A stretch of 64,000 nucleotides of DNA from Tremella fuciformis (taxonomy: Eukaryota > Basidiomycota > Tremellomycetes > Tremellales > Tremellaceae), in contig CP136495.1 in assembly GCA_032768795.1 (NCBI GenBank), forward strand, positions 436,501 to 500,500. The letters are read 5' to 3'. A model generated the notes under the pieces. That model saw nothing but the letters and a program-made list of their open reading frames with translations, was not told where the DNA came from and did not search any database. Positions 1,341 to 61,928 of this stretch are shown here, piece by piece. A program made the translations under genes and the position numbers. The first letter of the stretch is position 1; each line of letters starts with the position of its first letter.

Positions 1341-1418
1341 TAACGTCTCCTAGTTTCGATCTAGGGACTTTCAGGTTTCAATATGAGCCTGACACGCTAG
1401 CCTCTGCGTCAAGACGTT
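1341..1418 (-). tRNA. Initiator tRNA-Met (CAT) with a 5-nt intron
   Basis: Minus strand 1418 to 1341. Acceptor stem AACGTCT/AGACGTT pairs 7/7, D stem ACGC/GCGT 4/4, anticodon stem TCAGG/CCTGA 5/5, T stem CCTAG/CTAGG 5/5, discriminator A. The D loop AGAGGCTA has the G18G19 pair. Initiator marks: A1:U72 pair and a T loop ATCGAAA (A54, A60) in place of TTCR. The B box GATCGAAAC fits GWTCRANNC. The anticodon loop is 12 nt; taking out TTGAA between positions 37 and 38 leaves CTCATAA, the usual initiator loop with anticodon CAT, so a 5-nt intron is inferred. Mature length 73 nt without CCA. A non-LTR retrotransposon (A1) ends at the base before its first nucleotide, so its natural leader has been replaced by retrotransposon sequence. 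Confidence 0.95.
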
Positions 1419-1554
1419 CATTCCCGAGCTAAAATACTCCGAGGATCTCCGGTTCCTCTCGGATCAGCCGGTGATCGGATCACCCGCCGTCCCGTATTCG
1501 CTATGAGATCTCTGCTCCTCCGCCTGTCAAGTCCAGACTCTGATGCTCACCGGA
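1419..1554 (-). promoter_or_regulatory. 3' UTR of LINE A1
   Basis: 136 bp between the stop codon and the tRNA, almost the same length as in B (138 bp) and E (142 bp). It contains a GATC-rich segment with short inverted repeats (CAGCCGGTGATCGGATCA region) that has counterparts in the B and E 3' UTRs (GATCAGCC followed by CCCGTGATKGGTC). Non-LTR reverse transcriptases commonly recognise a 3' UTR structure, so this is the likely template recognition element. It is also now the leader region in front of tRNA-iMet. Function is inference. Confidence 0.5.
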
Positions 1555-4500
1555 TCAAGACCGTGCCCCGGTCAAACCCAGCTTTCTCCTTTTTCCCGCC
1601 CGCCGATCAGCCGACAAGTCCGCCTCCGACGCCCGCCGTCGCTTCGAACGAGCCGTGTCTCCAACGTCGCTGATGCTGTCGTGACCGAGTTGTCGCGTTC
1701 GCCCTCGATCAGGTGCCGCCTCATCCTCTTTCTGCAAGATCCTGCTCGATGAACGCACTCCGCGCTGGTACAGCGGCATAACGTCCCGCCAGTGTGTTTT
1801 CGCAATCGCGGCCGCCAGACGAATGGCCATCTCGTGCGCTGCCTTAGCTTCTGCAACCCCTAGGGGATCCGGAGGTGGAATGACAACACCATACCAGTAC
1901 TGAGAAGGCCGCTCGGGGGTACCGTAGACGACGTCCACCATATAGCTCTGCCATGCCTGGCGAGCAACATCCTCGTCGCCGAAGCCGCTGTCAGCTCCCA
2001 CCCTTGCCCAGTGGCGCTGCACGGCGTCGTCGATAACCGAGTTACGGATGTCTTCGAAATGGGGACAGGCGACAAAGACATGCCGCTCGGTCTGAGAGGT
2101 GTGCCCGCAGAGCTTGCACGAACGATCCCGGTCCGGATCGGTGACATCGTGGAGCAACAGCCTGCCCGTCCGAATGAGGAACTGCAGGCGCGTTGAGGCA
2201 TGAGCTGCGGATCTGCGGTAGAAATAGGCGGGCGTTGGCGTCTGCTTCGATGGGGCGAAGCCAAGCCGCATCTTGAAAGTCGGCGTATGTCGCTGGAACA
2301 CCACGTCGTGGAGTCGGGTGGCCATGATCTTCGGCCACTCGTCTGGAACGTATCCCACGGCCGTGTCGTATGCTACGAACTTGGGCATGTACGCGGTCGG
2401 AGGCGGGATGAGGGTGGGCGCCAGAGTGCGATGTGCGAGCGCGGCTGACCGATCTGCCTGTTGATTGAGCAGGGAGGAAGGGTCAGTCTTATCGGTGTGC
2501 GCCTTGATGTGCGTAACGGAGCCAGCAAAACGACGGTACACGTCGTTCAGCCAGAGCAGGTACTCACTGGTTGGTCGACGTTTCCACGGGAACACATCGA
2601 AACCGGATGATCTGAGCGTTTTTACGGCCGTAACGCCGTTTGCGTAGTCCGTAACAAGACGTTGAGTGCCGGGGTAAGCGTGCGCTCCGATGGCGGCCGC
2701 GATCAAACCGACCAGTTCACCATGTCGAGACGTTGCTGCCTGTCCGATGAGAGAGAAGGAGGCCGAAGATGGACCAGCGACCGCCGCGGTGACGTCGTAC
2801 CCGCCTTCCGGGCGCGGTACTGCGCTTCCGTCAGACGCCCACAGTCCTGGCCCATTCTCCGGGCTTCTGGCAAATGCAGCCTGTATGTTCAGCGTCATCT
2901 GCGACTTACGGTCCTTCCGACTGGTCAAGGGCGACTTGTCGTTGTAGACAAGGTCGACCAAGTCCAGCTTGCGAAGCCAGTCAAGCACAAGCGGATTCTT
3001 CCGCCGATCGTCCCCCATTCGCGGATCGTCACAGAACGCGCCCTTATACACGTCGAAAGCAACAGAGGGATTGATGGTGTCAAAGTAGTGAAGGAACTGC
3101 CTGTTGCGATACGGCAGCAGCGACGCGGCACGCCTGGCGACGTGTTGCATGCTTTCGCGCGGCAAGTCCGTCTGATCGGTGTCGGTGATAGCGAGACCAG
3201 AGAGCTTAAGGTATTCGGCAGCGGCCAGCCAAGAGGTCGGAAGGTCAGGCTTCTTCGCATGGTCGTTTAGAGTGACACCGGGTCGCTCGAGAGGAGGGAC
3301 GCATCGATTGTGCTGACACTGCCAGTTAGCAAGGACGATGGATGCGGCTACCCGCATCGGCTCGAGATGATGATTGAGGGCTCTCAACACATTCTCCACA
3401 GCGATGCGGCCGTTCAGAACGTAGAACGAGGGAAAGCCGAAGCCCTTGTAGTCGAGAGGCAGGGAGAGGATCGCAGTGCGGGTGTATGGTACCTTCATCG
3501 CGTTCGTTATCTTCAGCGTCACCGCGGCATCCACCGCACTGGCATGCTTGGGAAGCAGTGGCTGTAGGTGGAGCCTCGGCAATATCCGGGGAAGGATGAG
3601 AGACCACGTAGCCTTTGCCAGCAAGGAAATTGGGTACTCAGCGTTTGTGGGTATAGGTATTGCGTCGATGACGGCCAAGATGGCCTTCAGCGACTCGGTC
3701 GGATCAAGAAACGCCGTGCGTAGAATCTTTGGCGTGCTGGTAACAGGTATGCGCCGCTCAACGCCAGCTATGCGGAGGCAGATGTCGGAAGGGGGGTTCT
3801 TAACGGCACCGAGCTGGAACGCCATCGTCTTCGCACCCCAGTCGGTCCGGACGTCGTACCTGCGCTGAAACTCCTCACTGCGGGAAACATACCTCTCGAG
3901 ATTCTCCACACTGGTTGCAAATTTGATGGAGTCGTCGAGAACCTCAACGTCTCGGAGGCGGAGACCGCCTTTCGGGCGATCCGTTCGTATGTGGAGGACC
4001 TTTTTGCGTGAGTTCACTGTCTCTATGATTGGTGCAGCTTGGTCCGATAGCTCCGGCAGCCCTGCCAGCCAGTGGTGCTGCATGGCCATGGCCAAGGTGT
4101 ATTTGATGCAGCTCGATGGATCACCTTGCTTGGTTTGGCCTGTAGTCAGAAAGTCTCGCTTACCCACACCATCCTGAGACTTGACGCGAAGCGATACTCC
4201 GGCTGTTCTCGCAGTCTCAAACGGTAGGACGTGCCCCAGGCCAAAGAATGTGAAGGAATCAACTGTAGCCGAGCTGTGGAGGTTGTCGAAACCCTTCTCG
4301 TGATCCTGTATCAGCCCCCATATCACATCACCATTCAGCCGGGCTGAGTGGTCTACTTCTGCCATGAACTGGGTGAGGTCACTGGACCTCACGCCACGCT
4401 GGGTGGCGATCTGGGTCGGCGGGAGTAGGCCGCGTTGCCAGACATACTCATGCAACCGGATCGTGTACCAGGAGCTGACCACGCCGTAGAGGCAGTTGCC

Positions 4501-7500
4501 GAATACGATACCTCTGTAGTTGCGGGGATCGGTGACGTCACCCCGCTTGAAAAGCGGCGAGATGAAGTTTTCCTTGAGGCGAGAGGGGAAGTAGTTGTGC
4601 ACAATGCAGTAGTTGCAGAGGCGTAAAATGAGGGTAAGGAACTCCGTGCCCGTCTGCTTCAGCGCCCACTTTTCCCAGCCGTCAGGCCCTGGAGACGGTT
4701 TAGGATTACCTTTGCGAAGCGTGTCGTATAGATCATCAAGAGACATGATCGCTGGCCAGTCGAAGCGATTCTTGCCCGCGTTCTTGCTTTTGAAAGACCG
4801 AGCGGCTTCACAGTTGAGCCAGGGTTTCGAACCTGGCTCAGGATCAGCTCGATGGAGTAGGAGCTTCTCGAAATACCGCGTCCATGCCTCAAGCCGCGTT
4901 TGAGGCTCGGTTGCCAATACCTCCGATGCTGGTTCAGGACCGGGCTGAGCACTCCGGTCGAACACCATCCAGTCCGGAGGAGATAGGACCGCGCTGGTGT
5001 CAGCTATCACGCCATTTGAGGGCACACGGAACCCGAAGGTGCTGTCCCCAGCTGATAGCCCTTTGCCATCGGGCCCGATGACTTGCAGAACAGGCGGATT
5101 TGTGATTGAGACTGGTTCAAAGAGTTGGCGGATCGGTCCGCCACCGAGGACACGTTGAAACTCCTCTTTGGTGGCCCGGGATGCAGATTTGGCGAGGGCA
5201 GCGCGAGTCGCCTTGTGAAGCTCCTTTGAGACGACGTGTCTGGCGCGCCTTACCTGCTCCACGGACGGATCGCGCGTCATGGCATGATGACAAGCTTCAT
5301 CCCAGACATCGCGAGCCTGCGGACGGGCGGCCAGGAAGGCTTGAAGACGCCCCTCATCCATCGCGCGTATCAACTTACCATACATCTTCATCCTGACCGC
5401 TATCGCATGGCATTCGTCGTTTGCCCCCAACCGGAGACGATCGTTGACTCTCGAGCCTTTGCGCGGCGAAAATATGGCCTTGCTGGCGGTGGTTAGCGTA
5501 CGATGGCAGTAATCCAGTAGTTCATCAAAGTCACTGTCGGCCTGGATGCAGCCGTCCGAATCGGGCAGTGGCGGATCGAATCGCATCTCTGACTCTATCA
5601 GCTCTCTGAAATTCGTGTACTTCTCTTTGGCACGGTCAGCTTTCGGGCGTCGGAGTCGAGGAGGCGCGAGGTTGACCACTCTGTGAGTTGTGGGAGTGAG
5701 AGCGCCTATGGAAAGTTGAGCTAGCACCGGGCGATGATTGGTGCCAGGAATGTCGAGATCCCCAAGGGCTTCAATGCCTTTTGGCGTCACATCGCGATGT
5801 ATAGCAAAGCGATCAAGGATCTTGAACGACGCATTATCGTGCCAGCCTCGGCAAGTCCAATCGCGGGTGACACGTATTCGGCGTTGCTGTTCCCATACAT
5901 CGGTTGCTGCGATGTTAGCCAGAAAGCGCCGGTAGGCAGAACGGTAGAGTCGTGAGACGATCTCATTGTACTTCTCTGACCCTTTGCTGTTCTCCCAAAC
6001 GTGCAGATAGGTGTTGAAATCGCCGCCGATGATAAACGGATGTGTAGAGCCGGCCACAGCCTGGACAGCGCTCCAAAAGGCATCCATGTCAGTGTGGCGA
6101 TCGCGACTGCTGGCGGTGGGAGCATATACCCCTACGATCCGCACCTGTTTCGGTCGTCCCAGTAGATCGGCGAGCTTGAGGTCTACAGCCGTGATCCTAC
6201 CTGAGCCTATACCAGTGGATGGTCCGGCAATGTGACGCACCACTGCGATAGTCTTACTCACCAGTATGGCTACTCCCCGACTTTGGCGGGCTGGCGAACG
6301 CTCAAAGTAGACATTGTAGAACCTTCTAAGGTCGAACTGGCGCATCGGGTCGAGCGGGACATGGAAGATCTGGTCAGGGCCCTGCCACGTTTCGGTCAAT
6401 ATCAGGATATGTGGGAAACAGTTGGATATCATTGCCAGAATGGCTAGATCCTTCGTGCGCTCACCTTTGAGTCCGTTACAATTGAGCGTCAGTATCCTCA
6501 GCGGGTCAGGATTCGCTGCAACAACGTTTAGCAGTAGCAGACCCAGGACAAGCTTCAGCCAGAGAGGAAGGATCGCACGGCGAGTAGGGAAAATAGCCTG
6601 TGCCGGCATAGAATGCCAACTCGCGGCGAAGTGAGAAGGTGGTGTGCTGAGCGGTGCATTCGGCGAGCGTCGGAAGCGGAAGCGTGTATAGGAGCGGAGA
6701 AGGATCAAGCAAAAAGCCACAATCGAGAACACATCCGGGCACGCACCAGGCCTCACCCCGCCTTGCGGCCCTTTGCAATCAGTAGGAGGGTGGGAACACA
6801 CTCGGCGACTTACGTCCATATCCCAATCACCTTCAATTCCGTCGTCGCGGGCACCGTCAACGGTGGCCGACTTCTCAAGCGCAGATTTCGAGGGTCCAGC
6901 GACAGGTCCGTCCGGGTGGAGAAGGTCGTCCGGGACGTCGAGAAGCTCCTCTCGATCGTCACCTACCTCCCCGTCCCCGAAGCCCATGCCACCATGCTCT
7001 TCGTCATCATCTTCGTAGCCGTCGAACTCTGCCTCTGCGTCAAGTGCTTCACCAGGAAGGTCACTGTTCTCGTCCGTCACGTCCTCGAAACGAGCCTCAG
7101 GGGCGCTGGACGGCAGAAGGAGTCTGGGAACAGGGACATCAGGAAGCTCGGGAGCGGGCCTGGCTGCGTCGTTCAGCGTGTTCAGCTCAGCGCGCTTGGC
7201 TTCCAAATTCGCCTTCGCAGACTGAATTTGGCCCTGCACTCGCGTAATGGTGATCTGCGCGAGACTGGCCATTGCGCCGCTGACATCCGACTTCGTGGCC
7301 GACCAGAGGGCTTGTTCCTTGTGCGAATTCTCCAGTTTGTCCTCCAGCTGCTCGACGTTTCGTCTCTCGAATTCGATGGCGGCCTCGACAGACGCAATCT
7401 TGCGAGTGAGCTTCGCATCGTCGGCTTGCCAGCGAGAGTGAAGCATCTGATAGCGTTGTGACGCAGCGGTCCACTGGAGCATGTAGGATCCCATCGCCTC

Positions 7501-8973
7501 GGTCTTCTCTTCACGCCTCTCGAGCTTCGCTTCCATCGTCTTCTGCCACGCTCGCGTCTGCTCAGTGTTGTCCGCGATCTTCTTCTCCTGAGCAGCACGC
7601 TTGCGCGCCGCATCCTCTGTGACCTGCTTGTTCACCCTGAGGTTGTTACAATTCAACTCGTACACGAGCTGATACGGCGGGACGACCATCGGTGTCTGCT
7701 GGCAGATGAAGATGGACAAGGCAAAAGATGTAGGAGTGGCGATAAACCATTTGCCGTGAGCGCGGCGGTGATCGGCGAGGAGGGCCTCCTCAGTCGAGAA
7801 CTTCTTGTTGTATTCTGCGACCCAACCCCACAACTCGGTGAGGAGTGTGGTTTCGGACAGGCGCCCTGCGCCGTACGCGGCGATGGAGCAGGCATTGGTC
7901 GGGAACAGCACCGTCGTAGAGGGCTCGAATGTCACAGTGTAGCCCTTGTATTGCCATTGCTTCCCGCGGGCGAGCGCATCAAACTGCTGGACCGAGGTCG
8001 GGTGAAGGAACTTTACCTGCCTCTCGTGACGAAGGCCGTTGTCGCGACTGTACTGGAAGCGGCCAAATGTCGCCACGAACGGGTGCTTGTACTCAGTGCA
8101 GATGTCTTTGATAAAGGCAGACGCGTCGACCTCCTTCAGATCATCCTTAGGGTGATCATTGTTCTTCTCAAAGAAGAAGTCGCCGACTGCTCGAGGATCG
8201 GTTTCCTTTCCACACGCCCAGTACGCTTCCACCTTCTTCGATAGCAACCTTCGGCGCAGTCTGTCCATGACATCGGGGTCGTCGGCGCCAGCCTGTCTGG
8301 CCTCCTGCGTGAACACGACTCGGGCAGTGGACTGATAGGCGGCAATGCGTCCCGTCAGCCCAGACTCACCCTCGCGTACTTCGAAGAGCTTGAGGTCGAT
8401 GAAGTCGGGTTGACCGGGAGAGAACGTCTTCGCGTCGACTTTGTTGGCGTCCCGCAAGATAGCAGCACCGTGGTGAAGAGCATCATCGGTTCTTGCATGC
8501 CTCAGCGCGAACAACCTCAGATCCTTCGGGGAACCGTCGTCCCCGTCAGACCATGAGGCCGGCGCGCCTTCGGCCAAGACAGCAGCCAAATGAGTATCGG
8601 CGGTGGAAGGTTCCTTGGCGAGGTCCGGGGGCGAGGCACGAGCGATCGACGTCGTGTCTACCCCCGCAAGCCAGTTGTCGTCAGTCGACTCCCCTGGCTT
8701 CTGGGTAACAGGCTGAGGTCTAAGACTGGAGGGCTTAGATGGCGTGATGGTAGCTTTCGGATTCTTCGCAGCACCAGGACGAGGAGGCAGGGAGGTGTTT
8801 CCGGGGGCAGTGGTGTGGCTACCGGCTGCGGAGACCTTGGGAGGTAGGCCCTGCTTGGCAGCCGTCGTAGCCTTGTTGGCAGCGATCTGCGAAGGGGTGT
8901 TCGGGCGGAATAGGCGGCGAGGCGCAGCCGTGGTGGTGTTCATCGGGGACGAAGGTCGCTTCTGGGATGACAT
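1555..8973 (-). CDS. LINE A1 polyprotein: ORF1-like region, EEP endonuclease, reverse transcriptase, RNase H
   Basis: 2,472 codons if started at the ATG at 8973 (MSSQKRPSS). Residues about 1-150 are basic and Pro/Ala-rich, about 455-600 coiled coil, then an acidic tail to about 720: an ORF1/gag-like part without zinc knuckles. A second ATG at 6609 starts a hydrophobic stretch (LPLWLKLVLGLLLLNVV) directly before EEP motifs LRILTLNCNG, TETWQ, GGDFN and GTNHRPV (Asn where SDH is usual). RT follows: NYRGIVFGN (about 1480), DHEKGFDNL (1560), KQGDPSS (1615), VLDDS (1678; LDD, not YADD). RNase H has DGSA, GEL, TDYANG, KAHT and ADRSA (2047-2170); then CKLCG..H....CPHF (CCHC) and a basic tail. No stop separates the ORF1 and EEP parts, so either a fusion or two start sites are possible. 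The frame even stays open upstream to an ATG at 10,173. Domain set is Tad/I-like; clade not assigned. Confidence 0.85.
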   Translation of the reverse strand: MSSQKRPSSPMNTTTAAPRRLFRPNTPSQIAANKATTAAKQGLPPKVSAAGSHTTAPGNTSLPPRPGAAKNPKATITPSKPSSLRPQPVTQKPGESTDDNWLAGVDTTSIARASPPDLAKEPSTADTHLAAVLAEGAPASWSDGDDGSPKDLRLFALRHARTDDALHHGAAILRDANKVDAKTFSPGQPDFIDLKLFEVREGESGLTGRIAAYQSTARVVFTQEARQAGADDPDVMDRLRRRLLSKKVEAYWACGKETDPRAVGDFFFEKNNDHPKDDLKEVDASAFIKDICTEYKHPFVATFGRFQYSRDNGLRHERQVKFLHPTSVQQFDALARGKQWQYKGYTVTFEPSTTVLFPTNACSIAAYGAGRLSETTLLTELWGWVAEYNKKFSTEEALLADHRRAHGKWFIATPTSFALSIFICQQTPMVVPPYQLVYELNCNNLRVNKQVTEDAARKRAAQEKKIADNTEQTRAWQKTMEAKLERREEKTEAMGSYMLQWTAASQRYQMLHSRWQADDAKLTRKIASVEAAIEFERRNVEQLEDKLENSHKEQALWSATKSDVSGAMASLAQITITRVQGQIQSAKANLEAKRAELNTLNDAARPAPELPDVPVPRLLLPSSAPEARFEDVTDENSDLPGEALDAEAEFDGYEDDDEEHGGMGFGDGEVGDDREELLDVPDDLLHPDGPVAGPSKSALEKSATVDGARDDGIEGDWDMDVSRRVCSHPPTDCKGPQGGVRPGACPDVFSIVAFCLILLRSYTRFRFRRSPNAPLSTPPSHFAASWHSMPAQAIFPTRRAILPLWLKLVLGLLLLNVVAANPDPLRILTLNCNGLKGERTKDLAILAMISNCFPHILILTETWQGPDQIFHVPLDPMRQFDLRRFYNVYFERSPARQSRGVAILVSKTIAVVRHIAGPSTGIGSGRITAVDLKLADLLGRPKQVRIVGVYAPTASSRDRHTDMDAFWSAVQAVAGSTHPFIIGGDFNTYLHVWENSKGSEKYNEIVSRLYRSAYRRFLANIAATDVWEQQRRIRVTRDWTCRGWHDNASFKILDRFAIHRDVTPKGIEALGDLDIPGTNHRPVLAQLSIGALTPTTHRVVNLAPPRLRRPKADRAKEKYTNFRELIESEMRFDPPLPDSDGCIQADSDFDELLDYCHRTLTTASKAIFSPRKGSRVNDRLRLGANDECHAIAVRMKMYGKLIRAMDEGRLQAFLAARPQARDVWDEACHHAMTRDPSVEQVRRARHVVSKELHKATRAALAKSASRATKEEFQRVLGGGPIRQLFEPVSITNPPVLQVIGPDGKGLSAGDSTFGFRVPSNGVIADTSAVLSPPDWMVFDRSAQPGPEPASEVLATEPQTRLEAWTRYFEKLLLHRADPEPGSKPWLNCEAARSFKSKNAGKNRFDWPAIMSLDDLYDTLRKGNPKPSPGPDGWEKWALKQTGTEFLTLILRLCNYCIVHNYFPSRLKENFISPLFKRGDVTDPRNYRGIVFGNCLYGVVSSWYTIRLHEYVWQRGLLPPTQIATQRGVRSSDLTQFMAEVDHSARLNGDVIWGLIQDHEKGFDNLHSSATVDSFTFFGLGHVLPFETARTAGVSLRVKSQDGVGKRDFLTTGQTKQGDPSSCIKYTLAMAMQHHWLAGLPELSDQAAPIIETVNSRKKVLHIRTDRPKGGLRLRDVEVLDDSIKFATSVENLERYVSRSEEFQRRYDVRTDWGAKTMAFQLGAVKNPPSDICLRIAGVERRIPVTSTPKILRTAFLDPTESLKAILAVIDAIPIPTNAEYPISLLAKATWSLILPRILPRLHLQPLLPKHASAVDAAVTLKITNAMKVPYTRTAILSLPLDYKGFGFPSFYVLNGRIAVENVLRALNHHLEPMRVAASIVLANWQCQHNRCVPPLERPGVTLNDHAKKPDLPTSWLAAAEYLKLSGLAITDTDQTDLPRESMQHVARRAASLLPYRNRQFLHYFDTINPSVAFDVYKGAFCDDPRMGDDRRKNPLVLDWLRKLDLVDLVYNDKSPLTSRKDRKSQMTLNIQAAFARSPENGPGLWASDGSAVPRPEGGYDVTAAVAGPSSASFSLIGQAATSRHGELVGLIAAAIGAHAYPGTQRLVTDYANGVTAVKTLRSSGFDVFPWKRRPTSEYLLWLNDVYRRFAGSVTHIKAHTDKTDPSSLLNQQADRSAALAHRTLAPTLIPPPTAYMPKFVAYDTAVGYVPDEWPKIMATRLHDVVFQRHTPTFKMRLGFAPSKQTPTPAYFYRRSAAHASTRLQFLIRTGRLLLHDVTDPDRDRSCKLCGHTSQTERHVFVACPHFEDIRNSVIDDAVQRHWARVGADSGFGDEDVARQAWQSYMVDVVYGTPERPSQYWYGVVIPPPDPLGVAEAKAAHEMAIRLAAAIAKTHWRDVMPLYQRGVRSSSRILQKEDEAAPDRGRTRQLGHDSISDVGDTARSKRRRASEADLSADRRAGKRRKLGLTGARS

Positions 8974-10185
8974 GGGCGAGTAAAGGGCACAATCAGCCGC
9001 GGTGGATGAGTGCAATATGTGATGATGTGATGAGTCAAGAGATGGCAAACGACAGATGGAGTAGAGGTTAGTGATGGTCTTATGAGCGAGCCAGTGGGTG
9101 GCAAGAGCGTCTTGGGGGGTCCATCGCCGCTGGGGGCGAGACCTGTTAGTATCCCAAGTTGGAGTCACAAGGCAACGGTGGAGCAGATTTGCAATCCTCA
9201 CCGTTGGATGACCAAGAAGCGGGCAGAACGGATCAAAACGGGTTTCCCAGTCGCGACAAGGCTCTGGCCCGATGCCATCGCAGGCGGAGGGTGGCTGACA
9301 GCTGTTGATGGGCGGTGCATGACGGAGGAGTTGCTGGACAACAGGCCACGGAGGCCTCGAAGAGGCGCAGAGGTCCGTGCCGACTGTGTGTGTATTGTGG
9401 CTGAAACTCACCAAACGGGGTAGAAAATTTTCGGAGATGGGCGCGAAGTAGTCGTTTCGGTAATGTGATTGTCGAGTATTAGTAAACGGGGAACTCCCAT
9501 TAGAAAAGCGCGGAGGCGATACGATGTCGAGCGTGCTGTCTGGTGGACAGCAGAGGCGAGAACATGAGGGCGATGTAGTCGACTGGGCATAGATGAGTGC
9601 AAGCGCGCCGCAGACCGTAGCGGTTACGCTGCTCCCATGCAGAACATATAGGACTTGCATGGGTTCGGAGCATGCTCCGGCAGGCATCAAAGCCTGTAGC
9701 TGAGCGAGAAGGGGCACTGGGCATGCGCTGATCGTTGCAAACACCAAAGGCATTTGCAGGTCACAGTCACGCTCGGTACACCCTTGAGGGAAGTGGCAGT
9801 GAGAGGGATGTAGAGGGAGGTCGACCCGTGAGAGGCCGGCCCGAGGACACGAGGAGGAATAGGCTGGCGAGGCCCCAACTGATGGCGATGTGGTGCGCTC
9901 GCGGTGTTCGTGATTCGGCCCGTCCCAGTCGTCCAGCGTCCATGCATACCTCGGATTCCATTCAGCTGCCTTCCAGGTCTCGCTTACGTTCAATTGCGCA
10001 AAGATCTCGTGGATGGACCCCCGAACATCCAGCTTTTCGTAGGACCCTGCGCCGAACAATGGCTCGGCGAGATCGGTCGATAGGCCGTTAGGAATCGAGG
10101 TATGCATGACGATGAGACAGAGCGTGAGGATGTAGCCGACCACTAAGCGTGTCGTTGAGCACATCATGAACATCGAGCTCGCTGG
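8974..10185 (-). other. 5' region of LINE A1, open in frame with the polyprotein
   Basis: About 1.2 kb between the hexamer tract and the first good ORF1 ATG. It would normally be called 5' UTR, but in the polyprotein frame it has no stop for about 400 codons and starts with an ATG at 10,173. A block at about 9,620-9,690 encodes GACSEPMQVLYVLH; element E has GACSKPVHVLYVLH in the matching place, with half of the codon changes silent. Either it encodes an N-terminal extension or it is a conserved RNA/promoter element; I cannot decide. Confidence 0.5.
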
Positions 10186-46929: not shown

Positions 46930-46934
46930 GGTCG

Positions 46935-47963: not shown

Positions 47964-48023
47964 CCCCCTCTCGACGAGGCTACTCGTCCCGTCCATTCCA
48001 AACTCTCCACTCCAACGCATCAT

Positions 48024-52900: not shown

Positions 52901-54032
52901 ACAGTTGGTAAAGCGGTGCGACCCGTAGTTCTGCGCCCTCCTTCAGTCTGATCCGCAGGTCGTATTCTCTACTCGGCGGAAGCGTGTCGGCGGGTCGACG
53001 AGGGTGGAACACATCGAGGAACTCATGGTAGTACTCCGGAACGATCCTTCGCACCGCCTGGGACTCCTCCTCTGACAGAGTGTACTCGTCAAACCCAAGA
53101 TGCCCGTCCAAACGTCCCACCACTTCCTCGAGCTCGTCGGTGACAGTCCCTCGCAGCCGCTCTGCGGCGAGCCTGTTCTGCTCCCACCGATTGATCCGCA
53201 AGGGGATATGGTTCGGGGAGCTCCTACGGGACTGCCCCGCGTGTTTTCCTCTCTCTCTTCTTGCTCTGGTAGCCAAAATGGCCAGATCACTTGAAGCAGC
53301 CTCGACGACCGTCGACGAGGCCACCTTTTCTTCTCCACGGGTGACTTCCATAGCTCCCATGTCCATGACTACTCTCTTCTCTTGCATCCAGTCGTACCCT
53401 AGCACGACGTCTGCACCTGCGAGCCGCGTAACCGCTAGCCGTTCTTCACTTGTTTCCCCAAGCGTCTCCACCGGGGCCACCACTTCGTGGGTGATTTCGC
53501 CCGCGGATGACGGTTCGCCGTCGAACAGGAGGACATTCCTGGGTCGCTCCAACTTCTGTTGGGTCAAGCCCTGGCCTTCGGCGTAGTCCTGATCAATGAA
53601 GGTCCCGCCTGCGCCTGTATCTAACAGTATGCAAGCGGCCGTCCCGTCCACTTTTCCTGCTACGACAGCTTGATGCCTTCCCAGCCTGCAAGCCTCACCG
53701 CTCATGCATTCCTCGGCATCACTAGCACTCTGTACAGACTCCTTCTCGGACTCCAGGTCCTCTGCTTCTTCTTCATGTTGATCTTCCTCGACGAGGGAAG
53801 CGGACCCCGTCGGTGGGTGAGTGGGCGTCGGATTAGAGGATTTGAGAGGTGAAGTCGGTTGTTCAGGAGGCGTGAGGGCGGAGAGTGTGTATGGAGCGGG
53901 GCCTCGAGTTTCTCCTTGTAGCTCGGGACCCCTCAGGCTTCCCCCTGCGGCTCCTGCTTCACGCGTTGGCCGGGGTTGAACGAGCCTGGGCAGTCGCGCG
54001 CAAGATGCCCAGCGTTTCCGCACTTGAAGCAA
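49965..54032 (-). CDS. pol: Gypsy-2 Pol: protease, reverse transcriptase, RNase H, integrase, chromodomain
   Basis: 1,355-codon open frame overlapping gag by 100 nt in the -1 frame. Protease LLDTGAGG, RT VNYRKLNEA and YIDDILVH, RNase H QTDASLYGWG and LTDHHNLS, integrase with H...H and CAICQRT, SMDFIEEL, SDRGSKF, GQTERVNQ, and a C-terminal chromodomain (YLVEWVGYEGTDEETTWEP). In motif 3 of RT it has VNYRK where gypsy-1 has VDYRK. No stops; potentially active. Confidence 0.95.
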   Translation of the reverse strand: MLQVRKRWASCARLPRLVQPRPTREAGAAGGSLRGPELQGETRGPAPYTLSALTPPEQPTSPLKSSNPTPTHPPTGSASLVEEDQHEEEAEDLESEKESVQSASDAEECMSGEACRLGRHQAVVAGKVDGTAACILLDTGAGGTFIDQDYAEGQGLTQQKLERPRNVLLFDGEPSSAGEITHEVVAPVETLGETSEERLAVTRLAGADVVLGYDWMQEKRVVMDMGAMEVTRGEEKVASSTVVEAASSDLAILATRARRERGKHAGQSRRSSPNHIPLRINRWEQNRLAAERLRGTVTDELEEVVGRLDGHLGFDEYTLSEEESQAVRRIVPEYYHEFLDVFHPRRPADTLPPSREYDLRIRLKEGAELRVAPLYQLSPDQMRALRELLAKEQAAGKIRPSNAAYGSPSFFVPKKVAGEWRMVVNYRKLNEATVSDAYPLPLISQVTADLAESEWYTKFDLPGAYQLLRMAPGHEAYTAFRTPLGMFESLVVRDGLKNAPAVFQHFLNEVLREFVGRGVVIYIDDILVHAKSLDELRSLTKAVLEALRKAGLYVKASKSEFEKRKVDFLGFVISREGVEANPEYVKGVVDFPAPSNLLEVRRFLGLANYYRRFVPNFAKVALPLVLLTKKGVPFGWGDAQARAFEEIKRRMSEPPVLAHFDPAFETIVQTDASLYGWGFVISQINPSTSLEHPVAIESGSFSGAELNWTTTEKEFLAIVMAFKRKRHLLLQVSCTVLTDHHNLSYWMEPRKLSGRVARWVDALAGFSFRIVYRPGLKAAYPDALSRRPDYKPDGLDLEEQRVQALPGFDQESKVETSLGYMLRALIEEPRRGSSSPDPEAREDPQTGTRSTWEEDEEFEHAGEELERIKKEENGVVIDAAGFPKLFGLVQRMGLDEPTRAKVEPGGALRLNGRLYLTGKGDGRLRAIRDRHEGILAGHPGITKMLELLRRDVCWLGLRRDVEAYVQGCAICQRTKTSRQRPHGLLQSLEVPEGPWQAISMDFIEELPGSQGFNSILVVVDRLTKWAIFVPTTTRLTTAGLVDLIIDNVVAQHGLPRSIVSDRGSKFTSRLWGALCGALGIKISLSTAFHPQTDGQTERVNQVLEQYLRVFCDHRQDDWSSLLQRAAFAYNNTQHSAIKMSPFEANFGYSPRWTDDLRESAERAEIPSVKEKLGSLDEVHRSCQQAIQQANERYAKYYDAKRRDAPVLKVDDMVMLSMENIKTRRPSKKLDIKWGGPYKILAKTGPSTYKLELPATMRVSPVFNVLRLKPYHPPRIPGQTYDPPPPVEVDDEGPSYEVKNVVDSRKRGRKVEYLVEWVGYEGTDEETTWEPVENITGALESVESFHKRNPGKPRGI

Positions 54033-55075
54033 AGGCCCTGGCTGCCTCGCCTCTCGTGCTCGTCCGGAGTGAGCCTAGGGCGAGGAGGGTAGACTCGTCG
54101 AGGGGCTGCAGCGGAGTTGAGACTCGACGAGGTTATCGGGCCAGGTGAGGGTCTGGGGTTCGTCACCGCCGCTCCAACCTCTGACGTAACCGCTGTAGAT
54201 CCGCCGTTGTTGCCGCCCAGGACAGTCTTCTTCTTCTCTCGCCTGTTCTCCGCCTTGTTCTTCTCTGCCTCCCTTGCTCGCAGACTGTTGTCGAGGCGGA
54301 CCACAAACGCCTGCAGCTCGGCAAAGGTCTCGAACTCTTTGGGGTGCCTGGCCACCTCGTCCTGAAGCACGTCGGAGAGCCCTTCCTTGGCACGAGCCGT
54401 TGCTTGCTCGTCGAGCTCCCATGAGAGGACTGACGTGTACTCCCGAATCTTGGCGAAGTACTCGGCTGCCGATCCCGTCTGCCGCAGCGAGAAGTACTTG
54501 CGTCGAGCAGTCCCCTTCGCGTCGGGATCCCCAAAGTTCTCGCGCAGGTAGCGACGAAGCCCAGCGTAAGTCCGAATTTTCTCGTCGAGGTAGTCGCCAG
54601 CCTCGACATGCTCTCCGTTCTCGTTCAAATCGCTGTCTCGCCCTGTCGCCAAGGGCTGAATCGCGTCGAGCACGAATCCCCTGAGGAACGAGATCACATA
54701 CATGACCTTGTGCGTGTCGCCAGAGAACTTCGACGGCTGCAGCTTGAAGACCGTCTCGCACTGCATGATGAACCGCTCCAAAGCGGCTGGGTCCTTGCCG
54801 TTAAACGTGTCAGGCGGGTTCGCCTTCGGCTCGGACGGGTTCCCAACGCCTGGCGAGCCCTGTCGTTGCTGCGCCTGCTGCTCGACGAGGGCCGCCTGAA
54901 GCTGCACGATTTGCGCGAGCAACTGCTGCACAGACGGCTGATCACCCAATGGTTGGGCCATGTTGGTCGCGGCGGCTCTCAGTCGAGTGTCCACCGGTAG
55001 TCGTAGGTTTGTGGGTAGAGCAATGTGCTGATGCTCAGGATCTGTCGACGTGGTTCGTCGAGTCGATGGTGCCAT
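53933..55075 (-). CDS. gag: Gypsy-2 Gag
   Basis: 380 codons from the ATG at 55,075 (MAPSTRRTT). Capsid region around NPPDTFNGKDPAALERF and FGDPDAKGTARRKYF, a Lys/Arg-rich linker, and one CCHC knuckle CFKCGNAGHLARDC. It ends just after the GGGGGAA run used, by inference, for the shift into pol. An inner ATG (MAQPLGD) is a possible second start. Confidence 0.93.
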   Translation of the reverse strand: MAPSTRRTTSTDPEHQHIALPTNLRLPVDTRLRAAATNMAQPLGDQPSVQQLLAQIVQLQAALVEQQAQQRQGSPGVGNPSEPKANPPDTFNGKDPAALERFIMQCETVFKLQPSKFSGDTHKVMYVISFLRGFVLDAIQPLATGRDSDLNENGEHVEAGDYLDEKIRTYAGLRRYLRENFGDPDAKGTARRKYFSLRQTGSAAEYFAKIREYTSVLSWELDEQATARAKEGLSDVLQDEVARHPKEFETFAELQAFVVRLDNSLRAREAEKNKAENRREKKKTVLGGNNGGSTAVTSEVGAAVTNPRPSPGPITSSSLNSAAAPRRVYPPRPRLTPDEHERRGSQGLCFKCGNAGHLARDCPGSFNPGQRVKQEPQGEA

Positions 55076-55098
55076 GAACTAGTCGTGTGAGAGGTAGG

Positions 55099-55111
55099 AG
55101 CACCGTGGTAT
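55099..55111 (-). promoter_or_regulatory. Gypsy-2 self-priming site (PBS)
   Basis: 13 nt, two bases inside the 5' LTR, exactly complementary to LTR positions 55,276-55,264 on the element strand. A strong TATA run (about 55,302-55,311) lies 30 nt upstream of 55,276. Same geometry as gypsy-1 although the sequence differs. Confidence 0.72.
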
Positions 55112-55113
55112 AC

Positions 55114-55517
55114 TGTCACGGGGCCAAGCCGGTCGTCGACTGATAGGCCCTCTCACACGTGCTGTCTGTTGATCTGTCTCTGTCCTCCACGAGAAGGTGT
55201 GTCCTACAGCCTCTCGTGCGTCGACAACACGGCTGCGCCGTTACTTTCTATCCATGGGACTCAATACCACGGTGCTAAGGACGGTCTACGGGTGAGGACT
55301 TGTATATATATCACCCGTGCCCTCCTCTGCACCGCCTTGGGCTTTCTCCTTGAAACACCATCGACGAGGCTCGAGCTCTAAAGTCGTCGAGGCTACTCGA
55401 GCGTCGTCGAGGCTACTCGAGGATCGACGATAGGCTCACGTGTTTGACAGGCGTGCTGGGCTGGAACGAGGCTCGTAGGCGTGCTTTGGTGATCATGGAG
55501 GCGTGGCCGACGTGACA
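55114..55517 (-). repeat. Gypsy-2 5' LTR
   Basis: 404 bp, matching the 3' LTR by eye; contains the TATA run and predicted transcript start described for the self-priming site. Confidence 0.95.
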
Positions 55518-55522
55518 GGTCG

Positions 55523-58500
55523 CTACACTCCCATACGTGTAGGTAGGCGTTGAAATCACCCCCAAGGACAAAAGGTCGATCACCTGTAGTCAGTTGTACA
55601 ACGCGGTCCCAGAAACCTTTGATATCCAGATGCCTGGCGCGAGTACTGGCTGTAGGGGCATAGATGCCAACAATTCTGAGTGTTTGTGAACGACCGATAG
55701 CATCTGCAAGCTTGATATCGAGGGCTGCGATGCGACCAGCCCATAATGGTTCTGGCGCAATCGAGACACGAGACACGATAGAGATGGTCTTGAGGACCAG
55801 GATCGCGACCCCTCGAGAGCCTGACGTTGGTGAAGACTCACTGTGGACATTGTAGAAGCGCTGAAGGGAGAACTGGCGAAGGGGATCTGCTGGTAAAGCG
55901 AGCATCTGCTTTGTGCCCTGCCATGTCTCCGTCAATATCAGGATGTGTGGGAAGCAATTCGAGATCATGCAAAGGATGGCGAGACTTTTAGTGAGCTCTC
56001 CCTTGAGTCCATTGCAGTTGAGAGTGAGGACCCTGAGAGGATCGCTGTATGTGAAAGCGCCAGGCAGCAAAGAGAGTCCAAGCAGGCACATCAGCACAAG
56101 GGGTGGCCGGGTCGTCCCAGTGGTACGAGTCACATTCCGCGCAACACGATTCTTACAAGGACCAGTCAACCGAGAGAAAGTCATTACGAGGTCGTTACAG
56201 GTGAAGCTTGAGACGGCGAGGAGCGACAACAGGACGAGCCGAGCGAGTATGGTCAGGTAGAAGCATTCTTCTGTGTAAGTGCGTCTTGGCAAAAAGAGGA
56301 CGTCCAGGCTCACTTGTGCGTCCTCCATCACAAAGTCACCTTCGATGTGAGACGACGAGTCTGCCGGGAGAGGAATCAACCTTCCCAAGGCCAAGGCGTC
56401 AGTGCCATTTGGACCTCGCAGGAAAGCCTGCTCTTCCTCGTCCTTTTCCGCTGCAGCCTGCCGGGAGCCAGAGGGTTGGGGCCGCTCGCCAGAGGCGGAG
56501 GCCGACTCAAGGTCCCCCTCCTCCTCATCACCGAGCTGTTCCATCGGTGCGTCGCCGAACGCTTTGGGCGAAGCCGCGTTCTTGCTGTGCGGATCGAGAA
56601 CTTCAGAGGGCGAGCTGACGCTACCATCCTCACTTGGCGCATTCTCCTCTTGGTCATCGGCCTCTTCGTCGTCTTCCAGAGCCTGAATTTCTCCAGCGGT
56701 AGAGTTGGCGGCTTGGAGCAGAAGTCGTGGGATTGGGACAGATGGGAGAGAGGGAGCTGGGTAGGCCTGAGACGCAAGAAGACGCCTCTGTGCCATCGCC
56801 CCGTCCAGGGCTGCCATGGAGGCTTGAAGCTCCTCTTGTGCCTTTTGGAGTGCAGACTGCGATAGGGCGATCATGGTTTCCTGCGCGTCGGACTTGAGAG
56901 CTTTCCACAAGGCGACATCCCTCTCGGCATGGTTGACATCCGTTTTCAAGGTGTCCACGCGGCCTTGAGCGTATTTGATGTCGGACTCGACTGACGCCAA
57001 GCTGGCCCCGTGGTCCAGTCGCTCACCGATCCACTGCGTCTGTTTGGCGGAGAATTCGGATTGAGCGTTTGTGTAGCGCAAGACATAGCCCCACATCGCC
57101 TCATTCTGATCATCCTTGCGATCCAGGCGCGCCCTCAGCGACTTGACCTCTTCCAGGGCTTCAGCCTGAGCTTCGGCAATCTTCTGCTCCTGCTCGACCT
57201 TCCTCCGGGCCTGCTCAGCATTCTGCTCAGCCGTGATCTTCGTTTCCGCCACATTGAGATCGTAGACGAATTGCCAGGGTGGCAGCAGGCGCGGCATTTT
57301 TGAGCAAAGGTAAGCGGAGAGAGAGAAGGAGGTCGGGGTGACAATGAACCATTTCCCGTGCGCACGCCGTTCATCTTTGAGCAATCCTTCGTTGGCGCTG
57401 TACTGCTCATTGTACTCCGCTACCCATTCCCACAGTTCCGCAAGGATCGAGGTTTCGGCAAGCTGTCCAGCGCCCCAGACTGCTATAGAGCACGGGTTGG
57501 TAGGGAAGAGGACGTTAGTCGCGGGCTCGTAAGAAACGATATACCCGGGACTGCCATTCTCTCCCGCAACTTTCCATGTGCGTCCCTGCGAAAGCTCGGC
57601 GACCTGCTGGACCAAGGCCGGGTGCAGGAACTTGACGTGCCGCTCGTGTCGCATGCCACGACGACGTGAGAAGTCGAACGACCCATAGAAGGACACAGTC
57701 GGTTGAGCGAGTTTGAGAGGAGACAAGAGATCACGAAGAAAGGCAGTGGCAGTATCCTCCGTGATATCGTCCTTCTCCCTTCCCTCCTCCTTTTCAAAGT
57801 AGAAATCTTCCACCGAGCGTCTGTCGACCTTGTTTCCGCAGCTCCAGTATGCCTCAAATGCCTTGCTGATCAGGCGAATACGAAGCTTGTCCATGATTCC
57901 GATGTCGTATCCCTGACCGTTTTGTCGAGCGGTAGCGCTATAAATGATGCGCGCCGTTGGCTGGAAAGCGGCAGCTATGCCATTGAGCTGAGGCTCGCCT
58001 TCGAGGACGTCGAAGAGCGCAGCATCAATATACTCAGCATTGCCGGGGCGGAGGACCTCCTTGTTGACTTCATTGATGTGGCGGAGAATCTCGTGAGCGT
58101 GATCGATGGAGTCGCCTGTACGAAGATGTCGCAGGTTGAAAATACGCAGCTCGAACGGGGAGGTCTCAGGATTGGTGGAGGGAATCTTGATTTTTGAGGC
58201 AGTAATAATGCTAGAGAGACTCTTGTCTCCTTGCGCAGCGCTTTCCTTAGGTGGCTCCGCTTTTTCGAACGTCTGAGCCGCAGCCGCTTCTGCCCATTTG
58301 GCTGCTGCCTGTTGGGCGGAAACGCCCGCAGCTTTGACAGGCGTCGCCTTGGGATCGGCGGTCACTCGAAGAGCGGTGCTGGGTTTGGCAGGCTTAGACG
58401 CCTTGGCTTTGCCGGGGTCGGCTCTGGCGGGTGCGAGAGACGTAGTCTCTCGACCTGATGCCGCCGTTGCCCCGGTCTTGCCACCAGCCGTGGGGAGCAC

Positions 58501-58617
58501 AGGAGGGGGAACCCCGGCCGGATTGCCGCGAGTGTTGCGAGGCTTGAAGGCCATCTTCTGGACGGGTCCAGTGAGACCTTCGGGCAATAGACGTTTGTTG
58601 TTGGCAGGAGGAGCCAT
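55523..58617 (-). CDS. LINE E polyprotein, N-terminal part: ORF1-like region and most of EEP
   Basis: Starts at the ATG at 58,617 (MAPPANNKRLL) and is cut at 55,523 by gypsy-2; it continues at 46,494. ORF1-like part: Ala/Pro/Lys-rich head, a central region with DFYFEKEE and GRTWKV matching A, coiled coil (AEQNAEQARRKVEQEQKIAE), then an acidic tail. At about 56,184 an inner ATG precedes a hydrophobic segment (PLVLMCLLGLSLLPGAF) and the EEP domain: LRVLTLNCNG, TETWQG, GGDFNAYLHVWE. As in A, no stop separates ORF1 from EEP, which argues for a real fusion. Confidence 0.82.
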
Positions 58618-59950
58618 ATGCGTAATGAGAAAAGGTGGGGTAATGAATCGAGGTATCAACGTAAGCGAGTCCGAGGAAGTCAGAAGAAAGAAGAGAGGGG
58701 GGATGGTCGACCTTTTGGCCAAACACCCCCGAAAAAGAGGAGAGGGGGGGAACTTCGGCAAGACGGAGATACAGTCGTGGGTAGAGCGGGGTTCGCACCA
58801 CAGCCCCAACCACAACGGATCAAAAGGCAAAGAAGGGGGACAACGCTGGGCGCGAGAGGCCCAGTCCCCGCCATGGTGAGGGGAGAGAGGGTGCACCCAG
58901 GCCACCATCATTCCGGTGAAGACCGAGACGGAGAGCCCATGCTCAGGTCCCATCAAAGAACATCGCAGATGAGTCAGAGTCCCCTTCGAGTCGGGGAGGT
59001 AAGCCGGGGAGAACAAGCGATGTCGTGGGGCAGATTGGCGACCGAGCTCGACCGGTAGCTGATCGTGAAGTAAGCGGCCGTCGATGATGACAAAGGCAAT
59101 CGAAGGAGGCAGAAACGGGAAAACAAGTCGAGCGATGTTGTTTGCTAACGGAGTGATGCCGGAGACAGTTTTTGGGCCGTGGTCGGCGGGGTATCGGGAT
59201 TCCGGGCCGAGGATGAAATTTTCACGAGCTTCATTAGAAAACAGTAATCCAGTTAGAAAAAGGTCAGAGTAGATTAGCAGATCATTACCAAAGCTGAGAG
59301 AGCGATGCGCAGAGTACGATGCTTCGGTGGGTAGCGTCTGGCGAGAAAGATAGACTGGCGAGTCGAGTGCGAGCGTGCCACATAGCATAGTGGTCACTTC
59401 GCCCACGTGCAGAACATACAGGACATGCACGGGTTTGGAGCAAGCTCCAAGTGCTGGCAGCAAAGCCGAGCACGAATGGAGAGGTGAGACGGGCAAGTCG
59501 GTCCCGAAGACGAGATCTACGACCGCCTCACGACTCCAGTGATGGCAGGATCGCGCGCTCTTTGACTGGCGACGAAGGTCTGGAGCAGCGGTCGAGTGAA
59601 AGACGACGGCGGGTGACACCGCATGAGATCGAGGCTGGAGTGCCAGGTCGCGAGCGCTTGTTTCGTTCATCGCGGCCTTCTGTCCCCCATTTCGCGCGAA
59701 CCACCCATCCCTTGTCACAGACCAATCACTGCTTACGTTCTCGAGCCAGCCGGTCGTGCAAGTGCACCCTCAAACACAAGCGTTGACGAGACCGGCGGCG
59801 AACATTGGCTCGGCAGTAACGGTCGGTAACGCGAGGTCGGTGATGCGCACGATGGCAAACAGCGTCGTCAAGGCGAGGACGATGATCATGTTGGCGCTGG
59901 CACTGGCAAGGGCATACACGCAGGGCATCATCGTCGATACCCTGCAATCG
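58618..59950 (-). other. 5' region of LINE E
   Basis: About 1.3 kb upstream of the ORF1 ATG. From 58,618 to about 59,718 it stays open in the polyprotein frame (about 367 codons). It includes the block GACSKPVHVLYVLH near 59,400-59,450, matched in A. The last 230 bp toward the 5' end is not open in this frame. No other gene is seen. Confidence 0.5.
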
Positions 59951-59995
59951 TGAAAGATGAAAGATGAAAGATGAAAGATGAAAGATGAAAGATGA
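59951..59995. repeat. (GAAAGAT)n heptamer tract at the 5' end of LINE E
   Basis: About six copies on the plus strand. Like the hexamer of A1 and A2 it lies between the 5' end of an untruncated LINE and the AACGTCT copy (59,996-60,002) before the next 3' end. Confidence 0.9.
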
Positions 59996-60002
59996 AGACG
60001 TT

Positions 60003-61810
60003 CATTCCCGAGCTAAAATACTCCGAGGATTCCGGGTTCCTCTCGGATCAGCCGGTGATCGGATCACCCGCCGTCCCGTATTTGCTATGAGATCTCTGCT
60101 CCTCCGCCTGTCAAGTCCAGACTCTGATGCTCACCGGATCAAGACCGTGCCCCGGTCAAACCCAGCTTTCTCCTTTTCCCCGTCCGTCCATCAGCCGACA
60201 AGTCCGGTTCCGACGCCCGCCGTTGCTTCGAGCGACCCCTGTCGTCCCCATGACCAAGTTGTCGCGTTTGCTCTCGATCAGGTGTCGCCTCATCCTCTTT
60301 CGATGAGCTGCCGCTCGATGAACGCACTCCGCGCTGGTACCGCGGCATGACATCCCGCCAGTGTGTTTTCGCAATCGCTGCCGCAAGGCGAATCGCCATC
60401 TCGTGTGCCGCTTTGGCCTCGGACACGCCAAGTGGATCCGGGGGCGCGGGAACGACACCATACCAGTATTGAGTCGGTCGTTCTGGCGTGCCGTACACCA
60501 CTGCCGCCACGTATCGCTGCCACATCTCGTGGGCTGCGTCCACATCGTCGAATCCGCTGTCAGCAGCTACTCTTGCCCAGTGCCGCCGAGCAGCATCTTC
60601 GGCAACGGAGTGACGGATATCGTTGAAGTGAGGACAGTCAACGAAGACATGCCGCTCGGTCTGGGACGAGTACCCGCAGAGCTTGCACGATCGATCACGG
60701 TCCGGGTCGGTGACGTCGTGCAACAACAATCTGCCTGTCCGGATGAGAAACTGGAGGCGCGTCGAAGCATGAGCAGCAGATTTGCGGTAAAAGTAGGCGG
60801 GCGTTGGCGTCCGCTTCGAAAGGGCGAAGCCGAGCCGCATCTTGAAGGTCGGTGTGTGTCACTGGAACACCACGTCGTGAAGTCGGCTGGCCATGATCTT
60901 CGGCCACTCCTCTGGTACGTACCCCACGGCCGTGTCATACGCTACAAATTTGGGCTTGTACGCGGTCGGGGGCGGGATGAGGGTGGGCGATAATGTCCGA
61001 TGCGCAAGTGCGGCCGACCGATCTGCCTGTTGATTGAGCAGGGAGGATGGGTCAGTCTTATCGGTGTGCGCCTTGATGTGCGAAATGGAGCCAGCAAAAC
61101 GACGGTACACGTCGTTCAGCCAGAGCAGGTACTCACTGGTTGGTCGACGTTTCCACGGGAACACATCAAAACCAGATGATCTGAGCGTTTTTACGGCCGT
61201 CACGCCGTTTGCGTAGTCCGTAACAAGACGTTGAGTGCCGGGGTATGCGTGTGCTCCGATGGCGGCTGCAATCAAACCGACCAGTTCACCATGTCGAGAC
61301 GTTGCTGCCTGTCCGATGAGAGAGAAGGAGGCCAAAGATGGACCAGCGACCGCCGCGGTGACGTCGTACCCGCCTTCCGGGCGCGGTACAGCGCTTCCGT
61401 CAGACGCCCACAGTCCTGGCCCATCCTCCGGGTTTCTAGAAAATGCAGCCTGTATGTTCAGCGTCATCTGCGACTTACGGTCCTTTCGACTGGTCAAGGG
61501 CGACTTGTCATTGTAGAGAAGGTTGACCAAATCCAGCTTTCGGAGCCAGTCGAGCACAAGCGGATTCTTCCGCTCCCCCATTTGCGGATCGTCACAGAAC
61601 GCGCCCTTACACACGTCAAAAGCAACAGAGGGATTGATGGTGTCAAAGTAGTGAAGGAACTGCCTGTTGCGATACGGCACGCCTGGCAACGTGTTGCATG
61701 CTTTCGCGCGGCAGGTCCGTCTGATCGGTGTCGGTGATAGCAAGACCAGAGAGCTTAAGGTATTCGGCAGCGGCGAGCCAAGAGGTCGGTAGGTCAGGCT
61801 TCTTTGCAAG
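60003..61810 (-). mobile_element. LINE A4: old, 5'-truncated copy of family A
   Basis: The 3' end ...GGGAATG at 60,003 is followed by AACGTCT and the E 5' tract. The 5' end is cut at 61,810 and joined to AACGTCT (61,811-61,817) and the 3' end of B3. It is clearly more diverged than A1-A3. Confidence 0.85.
60139..61810 (-). pseudogene. LINE A4 fragment: decayed RNase H and zinc-motif region
   Basis: Two open stretches (61,810-60,859 and 60,840-60,139) separated by a TGA where A1 has CGA (Arg). A 14-bp deletion near 61,680 shifts the frame at its N-terminal side, a 6-bp in-frame deletion lies near 61,575, and a short piece of the C-terminus is missing. RNase H motifs SDGSA, TDYANG, KAHT and zinc motif CKLCG..H....C are still legible. 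Many differences from A1 are CG to TG or CA. Confidence 0.85.
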
Positions 61811-61817
61811 AGACGTT

Positions 61818-61928
61818 CATGCGCAAACCTAATAACTCTTCGGATCTCCCGATCGGATCAATCAGCCATCAGCCAACGCCCCGTGATTGGTCCTGAACCC
61901 AATTTCTCCTTCGCTCTCCCGCCCATCC
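61818..61928 (-). mobile_element. LINE B3: about 110-bp 3' stub of family B
   Basis: Only the B-family 3' UTR remains (GCGCAAACCTAAT block to about CTCCCGCCCAT), with a few substitutions against B1. It is followed by AACGTCT and A4. Its 5' boundary blurs into the copia region at about 61,929. Confidence 0.8.

Follow-up and report, generated by a model that had tools for sequence, protein, structure and literature searches.

The window analysed here is a 64,000-base stretch of Tremella fuciformis DNA (G000:C6:436501-500500) from one assembly of 28.14 Mb in 11 contigs. It holds an initiator-like tRNA-Met gene (1342..1418, minus strand) and, beginning at the first base of that gene and extending outward, a 60.5-kb stack of LINE elements. 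In the tRNA, read on the minus strand from 1418 to 1342, all four stems are Watson-Crick paired, making it the only such cloverleaf in the window, and the stretch scores 46.5 bits against RF00005 when scanned alone (gathering score 29). Initiator tRNAs are marked by a CAT anticodon, an A1:T72 pair, A54 and A60 in the T loop, and three G:C pairs in the anticodon stem. We take the gene to be an initiator (iMet) gene from the CAT anticodon, which requires the 5-nt TTGAA to be an intron in the canonical position, together with its A1:T72 pair and its T loop, ATCGAAA; the anticodon stem is without the three G:C pairs at its end. ARAGORN run with introns finds the gene, placing the intron elsewhere and naming it tRNA-Ser. 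It was missed by ARAGORN without introns, by cmscan of the whole window, by cmscan of ten loci and by an RF00005 genome scan, and we think that the 5-nt intron and speed filters lie behind these four default-scan misses. In the RF00005 genome scan the best 63 of 484 candidates were scored, and since the window tRNA was not among the hits, the scan is unusable as evidence of absence.

Pattern and DNA searches of the genome bear on how many such genes there are. An initiator-type pattern matched once, at the window tRNA, with no match in a reversed control, and two looser patterns matched 10 and 8 times, with 8 and 11 matches in their reversed controls, which is chance level. Among the looser-pattern matches, the window tRNA is the only one with a T stem of 5/5 and an acceptor of 7/7, the runner-up reaching 4/5 and 4-5/7. 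A DNA search of the genome with the iMet candidate returned no match besides itself. The pattern AATGAACGTCT was uninformative, with 7 matches versus 32 in its reversed control, and its five matches outside the window lie at loci without LINE homology in a tblastn search of 22 loci of about 3 kb. The preliminary description had counted iMet genes elsewhere, never bordered by these LINEs, as evidence against targeting; no second iMet candidate was found by the patterns and the DNA search of the genome. The window tRNA looks like the genome's single initiator gene.

A neighbouring LTR element supplies further evidence for this tRNA. Directly after an LTR at window position 62247 stands TGGTAACGTCTC, complementary to the CCA end and discriminator base of the iMet candidate; this primer site matches 12 nt of the tRNA CCA end, where 0.012 matches would be expected in 104 kb. 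The element starts at 61931, upstream of the outermost LINE, carries Pol_BBD and gag_pre-integrs domains, and is read as copia type from them. A copy on contig C3 (about 1882121) also matches the iMet CCA end, and the two sites, belonging to one element family, count once. Because a copia-type primer site complements its CCA end, the match supports a real, expressed iMet tRNA that probably serves as an LTR-element primer. Initiator tRNA priming of a fungal LTR element has been described for Tyl3 (PMC5014426). In a third LTR element, on contig C1 (about 2598693), the post-LTR stretch matches the spliced anticodon arm, as in the half-tRNA type; this match was noticed first and searched for afterwards, and lends weak support.

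Outward from the tRNA, the LINEs follow in the order A1, B1, A2, B2, A3, E, D, A4 and B3, with all LINEs and scars on the minus strand. LINE sequence makes up 43.4 kb of the stack, and the remainder consists of two Ty3 elements, a solo LTR and scars. A1 (1419..10238) is full length, with one 2909-aa open frame (stop to stop) that includes an EEP domain, and its 3' end is flush with tRNA +1. Upstream of A1, the scar AACGTC (10239..10244), identical to tRNA nt 1-6, follows the 3' end of B1 (10245..14368), which is 5'-truncated and includes the RT region. The same scar (14369..14374) follows A2 (14375..23217), a full-length copy whose 5' (TTTGTC)n overlaps by a few bases the scar AACGTCTT (23213..23220) after B2. 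B2 (23221..25052) is 5'-truncated at a point unlike that of B1, and A3 (25059..28617), also 5'-truncated, is followed by AACGTC (25053..25058). Next lies E (28625..41845), followed by AACGTCT (28618..28624) and divided into two parts (28625-29958 and 37990-41845) by a Ty3 element with identical LTRs (29959-37989), whose LTR borders gave no matching target duplication. The 3' end of D (41846..59994), GAATG, stops at 41846, where E adjoins it directly with no AACGTC; within D lie a solo LTR (46494-46929) and the other Ty3 element (46935-55517). The scar AACGTCTT recurs (59995..60002) after A4 (60003..61808), a 5'-truncated copy with 88% identity to A1-A3, and AACGTCT (61811..61817) follows B3, of which the last 111 nt are present (61818..61928).

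Tandem repeats of 5-7 nt stand at or near the junction in all five full-length 5' ends read, those of A1, A2 and D and of two loci outside the window, C2a and C2b. The repeats are TTTGTC, TTTCATC, TTTAC and TTCATC (the last two by eye), at 10186-10238, 23145-23217 and 59951-59996 in the window. Within E, positions 29162-29224 belong to a repeat roughly 145 bp long. Elsewhere its copies often come in pairs spaced 386 bp apart that flank a 530-bp unit, resembling a small LTR (TRIM) element. Upstream of the stack, C6:500501-540500 contains, as judged by eye, LTR elements and, at C6:514.0-514.6 kb, the decayed relic of a LINE; downstream of the tRNA, C6:426501-436500 carries several similar ORFs that look by eye like a host gene family.

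Domain searches matched PF03372 (EEP) in A (1e-12), D (1e-8) and E (1.2e-9). PF00078 matched weakly, below Pfam's cut-off, in B (7.7e-5) and in E (3.7e-4), and RVT_1 was absent by Pfam from A1 and from the C-terminal piece of D. The alignment of A with B, D and E extends through the RT region, and the RT assignment of A and D therefore rests on alignment with B and E. Pfam gave no RNase H match in A1; an RNase H motif is visible by eye in A, B and D, and the database homologue P0002 (37% identity) bears PF00075. Five database homologues of the A EEP-RT region emerged from 7988 candidates scored, two of them named, from Ganoderma and Phenoliferia. By their predicted domains and their alignment with one another, A, B, D and E form a group of non-LTR retrotransposons with an EEP/APE endonuclease upstream of RT. 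Read by eye, A, D and E each show a hydrophobic, signal-peptide-like stretch ahead of the EEP domain, near window position 6.6 kb (A1 residue 1240), at 41.8 kb (E residue 20) and at 56.1 kb (residue 1225 of the N-terminal D piece).

The 3' junctions tie these elements to the tRNA. The preliminary description placed the end of A1 at the base before tRNA +1, and this is exact: the last base is 1419 and the tRNA begins at 1418 on the minus strand. It also listed seven other LINE 3' junctions (10,239; 14,369; 23,215; 25,053; 28,618; 59,996; 61,811) followed by AACGTC or AACGTCT, and every coordinate holds, each giving the lower bound of an AACGTC tract, since the elements and the tRNA lie on the minus strand. 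Only the tRNA start is present at these seven junctions, as had been said, and the length of the match varies by copy: 6 nt after B1, A2 and A3, 7 nt after E and B3, and 8 nt after B2 and A4. The match is at least 18 nt after A1, where the real tRNA follows, and 0 after D. At least 6 nt of tRNA 5' sequence thus follow 8 of the 9 LINE 3' ends, A1 included, with D as the exception. The minus strand of the window contains AACGTC 37 times, and the chance of finding it after at least seven of the eight 3' ends away from the iMet gene is about 2e-22. At the relic at C6:514 kb, a B/D-type 3' end, read by eye, joins an E-type piece directly without AACGTC, as D joins E in the window. E probably inserts without target duplication, although two cases are no proof; the D-E junction and the relic need either an event without duplication or a deletion.

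Genome-wide DNA searches, in which common words were skipped and the best candidates scored, give copy numbers as lower bounds. Probes from the 600-nt 3' ends found at least four A and at least three B copies in the genome, all in this stack, with the B3 match to the B probe spanning 111 nt only. The E probe had one full match, in the window, and 25 further rows among the matches listed, 24 of which match the short internal repeat only, while one is the relic 14 kb past the window. The D 3' end was covered genome-wide by the A1 protein query only. Copies away from the gene had been named in advance as the finding that would count against targeting, and the genome-wide search with 3' ends returned no A or B copy away from iMet among the matches listed.

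Divergence among the copies is uneven. A single mismatch in 3559 nt separates A2 from A3, and a single mismatch in 1832 nt separates B1 from B2, yet the two members of each pair have unlike 5' ends. Between A1 and A2 there are 75 mismatches in 8823 nt; had B1-A1 and B2-A2 been copied as one unit, 15.6 B1/B2 mismatches would be expected at this rate (P(<=1) = 3e-6). B3 shows 2 mismatches in 111 nt. A4, the outermost A copy, is also the most diverged, at 88% to the other A copies, as expected if newcomers land between the last element and the tRNA. No full-length B turned up in the assembly, B1 being longer than B2. The database protein P0001, from source lgn, shares 99.8% identity with B1 across 1330 aa and continues upstream to reach the EEP region, which means that B exists in a longer form outside this assembly; B sources may sit on other haplotypes of the iMet locus.

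Three other histories could be proposed for such a stack. If a unit ending by chance in AACGTC had multiplied by tandem segmental duplication or unequal crossing-over, the collinearity of A1+B1 with A2+B2 over 10.7 kb at 99.1% would be explained. This history does not account for the 5' stops, which differ between B1 and B2 and between A2 and A3, each stop being joined directly to an AACGTC scar, nor for a B1/B2 divergence far below that of A1/A2, and E and D break the series; we regard it as very unlikely. The differing truncations and uneven divergence argue instead for independent target-primed insertions. Some of the same evidence bears on the idea that A and B move as a composite read-through unit, a truncated B followed by a full A, which would save events and would suit the alternation A-B-A-B-A as well as the B3-A4 pair. 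The A and B parts diverge unequally, however, and the bases after B1 (AACGTCC) and B2 (AACGTCTTT) are not the same, leaving this proposal even less probable.

That AACGTC is the elements' own 3' end, carried to other sites, is the most improbable of the three. It would explain why the motif is present at every 3' end except that of D, but A, B and E have it in common despite unlike 3' ends, its length is 6, 7 or 8 nt by copy, and no A or B copy lies away from the gene among the matches listed. Moreover, AACGTC pairs with the 3' acceptor strand of the tRNA, and so belongs to the gene. Truncations, scar variation and divergence led us to reject segmental duplication, an element-borne motif and an A+B composite alike.

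The preferred reading, which we hold to be very probably correct, is that the EEP LINE families A, B, D and E are specific for the 5' boundary of the iMet gene, inserting at +1 with a 6-8-nt duplication and stacking outward. It draws on flush 3' ends, scars of 6-8 nt, differing 5' truncations, the failure to find A or B elsewhere and the divergence of the outermost A, all features of the sequence. The preliminary description had explained every junction by repeated insertion at the tRNA start with duplication of the 5' acceptor strand. That account stands for A, B and E, whose 3' ends are unlike yet are followed by the same bases, and fits the differing 5' truncations and the diverged outermost A; it falls short at D, which has no scar and whose assignment to the iMet target we infer. 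With 8 of the 9 elements ending at iMet +1 or a scar, and a 6-8-nt target duplication after seven copies (absent at D-E), the group appears to be one of tRNA-gene-specific LINEs.

Under this model, the EEP endonuclease would nick the antisense strand between tRNA positions -1 and +1 (CGTT^CAT for A and B), and reverse transcription would start at the nick, on element RNA whose 3' end coincides with the tRNA boundary. A second cut, in the sense strand and 6-8 nt inside the gene, would duplicate AACGTC(TT). Each newcomer would then sit between the previous copy and an intact tRNA, regenerating the target and building the stack outward in age order. Recognition would extend beyond these 6-8 nt, since the scars are not obviously re-used. 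The RNA 3' end may arise by RNase P cleavage of a read-through LINE-tRNA transcript, and a Pol III factor could likewise act at the junction.

Related elements occur beside other tRNA genes. A search of the genome with the A1 protein gave at least 27 matches, with the best 16 of 24 candidates scored, and at least six LINE-superfamily loci lie outside the window. A tRNA gene or half stands downstream in 6/6, with support from strong (three) to weak (one). Locus C3 has a tRNA-Glu(CTC) 338 nt past the stop (RF00005, 54.5 bits), and C5a has a tRNA-Pro(AGG) 101 nt past the stop (49.1 bits). At C5b there is an intact inverted tRNA (37.9 bits), which ARAGORN calls tRNA-Arg with a 53-nt intron, and a tRNA 3' half lies past it, 1.3 kb after the open frame. 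At C2a, ARAGORN finds a tRNA-Gly(TCC) with all stems paired 105 nt past the stop, where Rfam gives only a sub-threshold tRNA-Sec match. C2b has a tRNA 3' half, where ARAGORN instead gives a tRNA-Arg with a 47-nt intron that lacks Rfam support. The weak case is C1, with a tRNA-Pro(TGG) found by ARAGORN under the intron option only and no Rfam match.

Four of these loci, C2a (C2:2310300-2320300), C2b (C2:981200-990700) and the pair C5a and C5b (at C5:1271100-1277000 and C5:1595000-1602000), have a tRNA 5' half just before the LINE and the matching 3' half beyond it, the halves being picked by eye. With G:U allowed, acceptor pairing between the halves is 7/7 at C2a, 6/7 at C2b, 7/7 at C5a (register +/-1 base, no anticodon stem assigned) and 7/7 at C5b. 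As a control, pairing of 7/7 arises in the same 3' flanks at 3/995, 0/995, 3/994 and 2/1094 positions, about 0.2%. An intact tRNA lies inside the insertion in three of the four, and at C5b its 3' exon and the split 3' half agree at 35 of 36 bases. The flanks fetched for C1 and C3 showed no split tRNA, the 3' end of C3 being approximate. A test for 3' transduction at C2a, which looked through the genome for the carried tRNA-Gly together with its flank, turned up no second copy, so a surviving source is not supported.

In an RT tree of 15 rows, drawn from the same genome and five database proteins and rooted at the midpoint, C2a, C2b, C5a, C5b and C1 group together (100/100), apart from A, B and D (100/99). 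E and C3 fall with A, B and D plus P0002 and P0003 (98/96), with the branching among them not resolved. One could imagine a LINE clade wholly tied to tRNA genes by two strategies. A, B, D and E would regenerate the apparently single-copy iMet gene at +1 and persist indefinitely, with sources perhaps on other haplotypes, while the sister clade would split other tRNAs at the anticodon loop or intron and carry an intact tRNA that could replace the destroyed one, a self-rescuing arrangement. We consider this broader scheme tentative and rather doubtful.

Several known systems resemble the stack in part. The preliminary description cited Dictyostelium TRE5 and TRE3 as precedents; they are indeed tRNA-targeted LINEs, but nearer ones exist in NLTR-A of D. 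purpureum and in the tRNA-specific NeSL and LIN elements. TRE5 and TRE3 of D. discoideum insert 40-54 bp upstream and 40-150 bp downstream of tRNA genes, respectively; TRE5 does so in opposite orientation, with ORF1 contacting TFIIIB and box B needed (PMC5911963). They share the APE endonuclease and tRNA-gene targets with the window LINEs, yet act at a distance, whereas the window LINEs lie flush at +1. NLTR-A, a LINE with an RNase H domain after RT, lands 2-6 bp upstream of the mature tRNA (PMC5006619, PMC5911963). It differs in belonging to Amoebozoa and in its 2-6-bp window, as against a flush +1, and those accounts describe no single-gene stack. NeSL-1_TV (tRNA-Pro), LIN15_SM (tRNA-Arg) and LIN25_SM (tRNA-Glu) are each specific for one tRNA species; as presented in PMC4640811, they are NeSL-related, placed among restriction-like-endonuclease LINEs and not fungal, whereas the window LINEs bear EEP. 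The Tx1- and R1-clade LINEs, such as Keno at U2 genes, are alike by description in combining APE with a sequence-specific target, although their targets are multicopy (PMC4640811). Utopia, at U2 snRNA genes, also has several families persisting on a low-copy RNA gene, but it uses a restriction-like endonuclease, and its excess insertions are thought to cost intact U2 genes (PMC4640811), whereas iMet is left whole here. Among fungi, Ylli of Yarrowia lipolytica is an APE LINE with many 5'-truncated copies, as here, but its description reports poly(A) tracts and no identified target-site duplication, and mentions no tRNA specificity (PMC5014426).

Site-specific LINEs are described as surviving by targeting multicopy sequences, and their persistence on low-copy targets has been called a surprise (PMC4640811). 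The preliminary description did not recognise any EEP-type LINE that lands exactly at +1 and piles up beyond 60 kb, and the structure is as it said: a 60.5-kb stack, PF03372 in A, D and E, and A1 flush with the gene. The literature searched, in which subscription journals are thinly covered, yielded neither a fungal LINE inserted at tRNA +1 nor an initiator tRNA gene bearing a stack of LINEs, which is weak evidence of novelty. What seems new here is an EEP-type fungal LINE group at +1 of an apparently single-copy initiator gene, stacking there.

The promoter of a tRNA gene is internal. Because insertion occurs at the first base and the promoter lies within the gene, a single essential target would survive every hit. 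The target is thus seemingly inexhaustible, and the iMet locus would be an ordered record of past insertions. Several questions become testable in this system: how one unique site is recognised by an EEP endonuclease, whether it is RNase P or the Pol III machinery that sets the junction, and how sources persist with one landing site.
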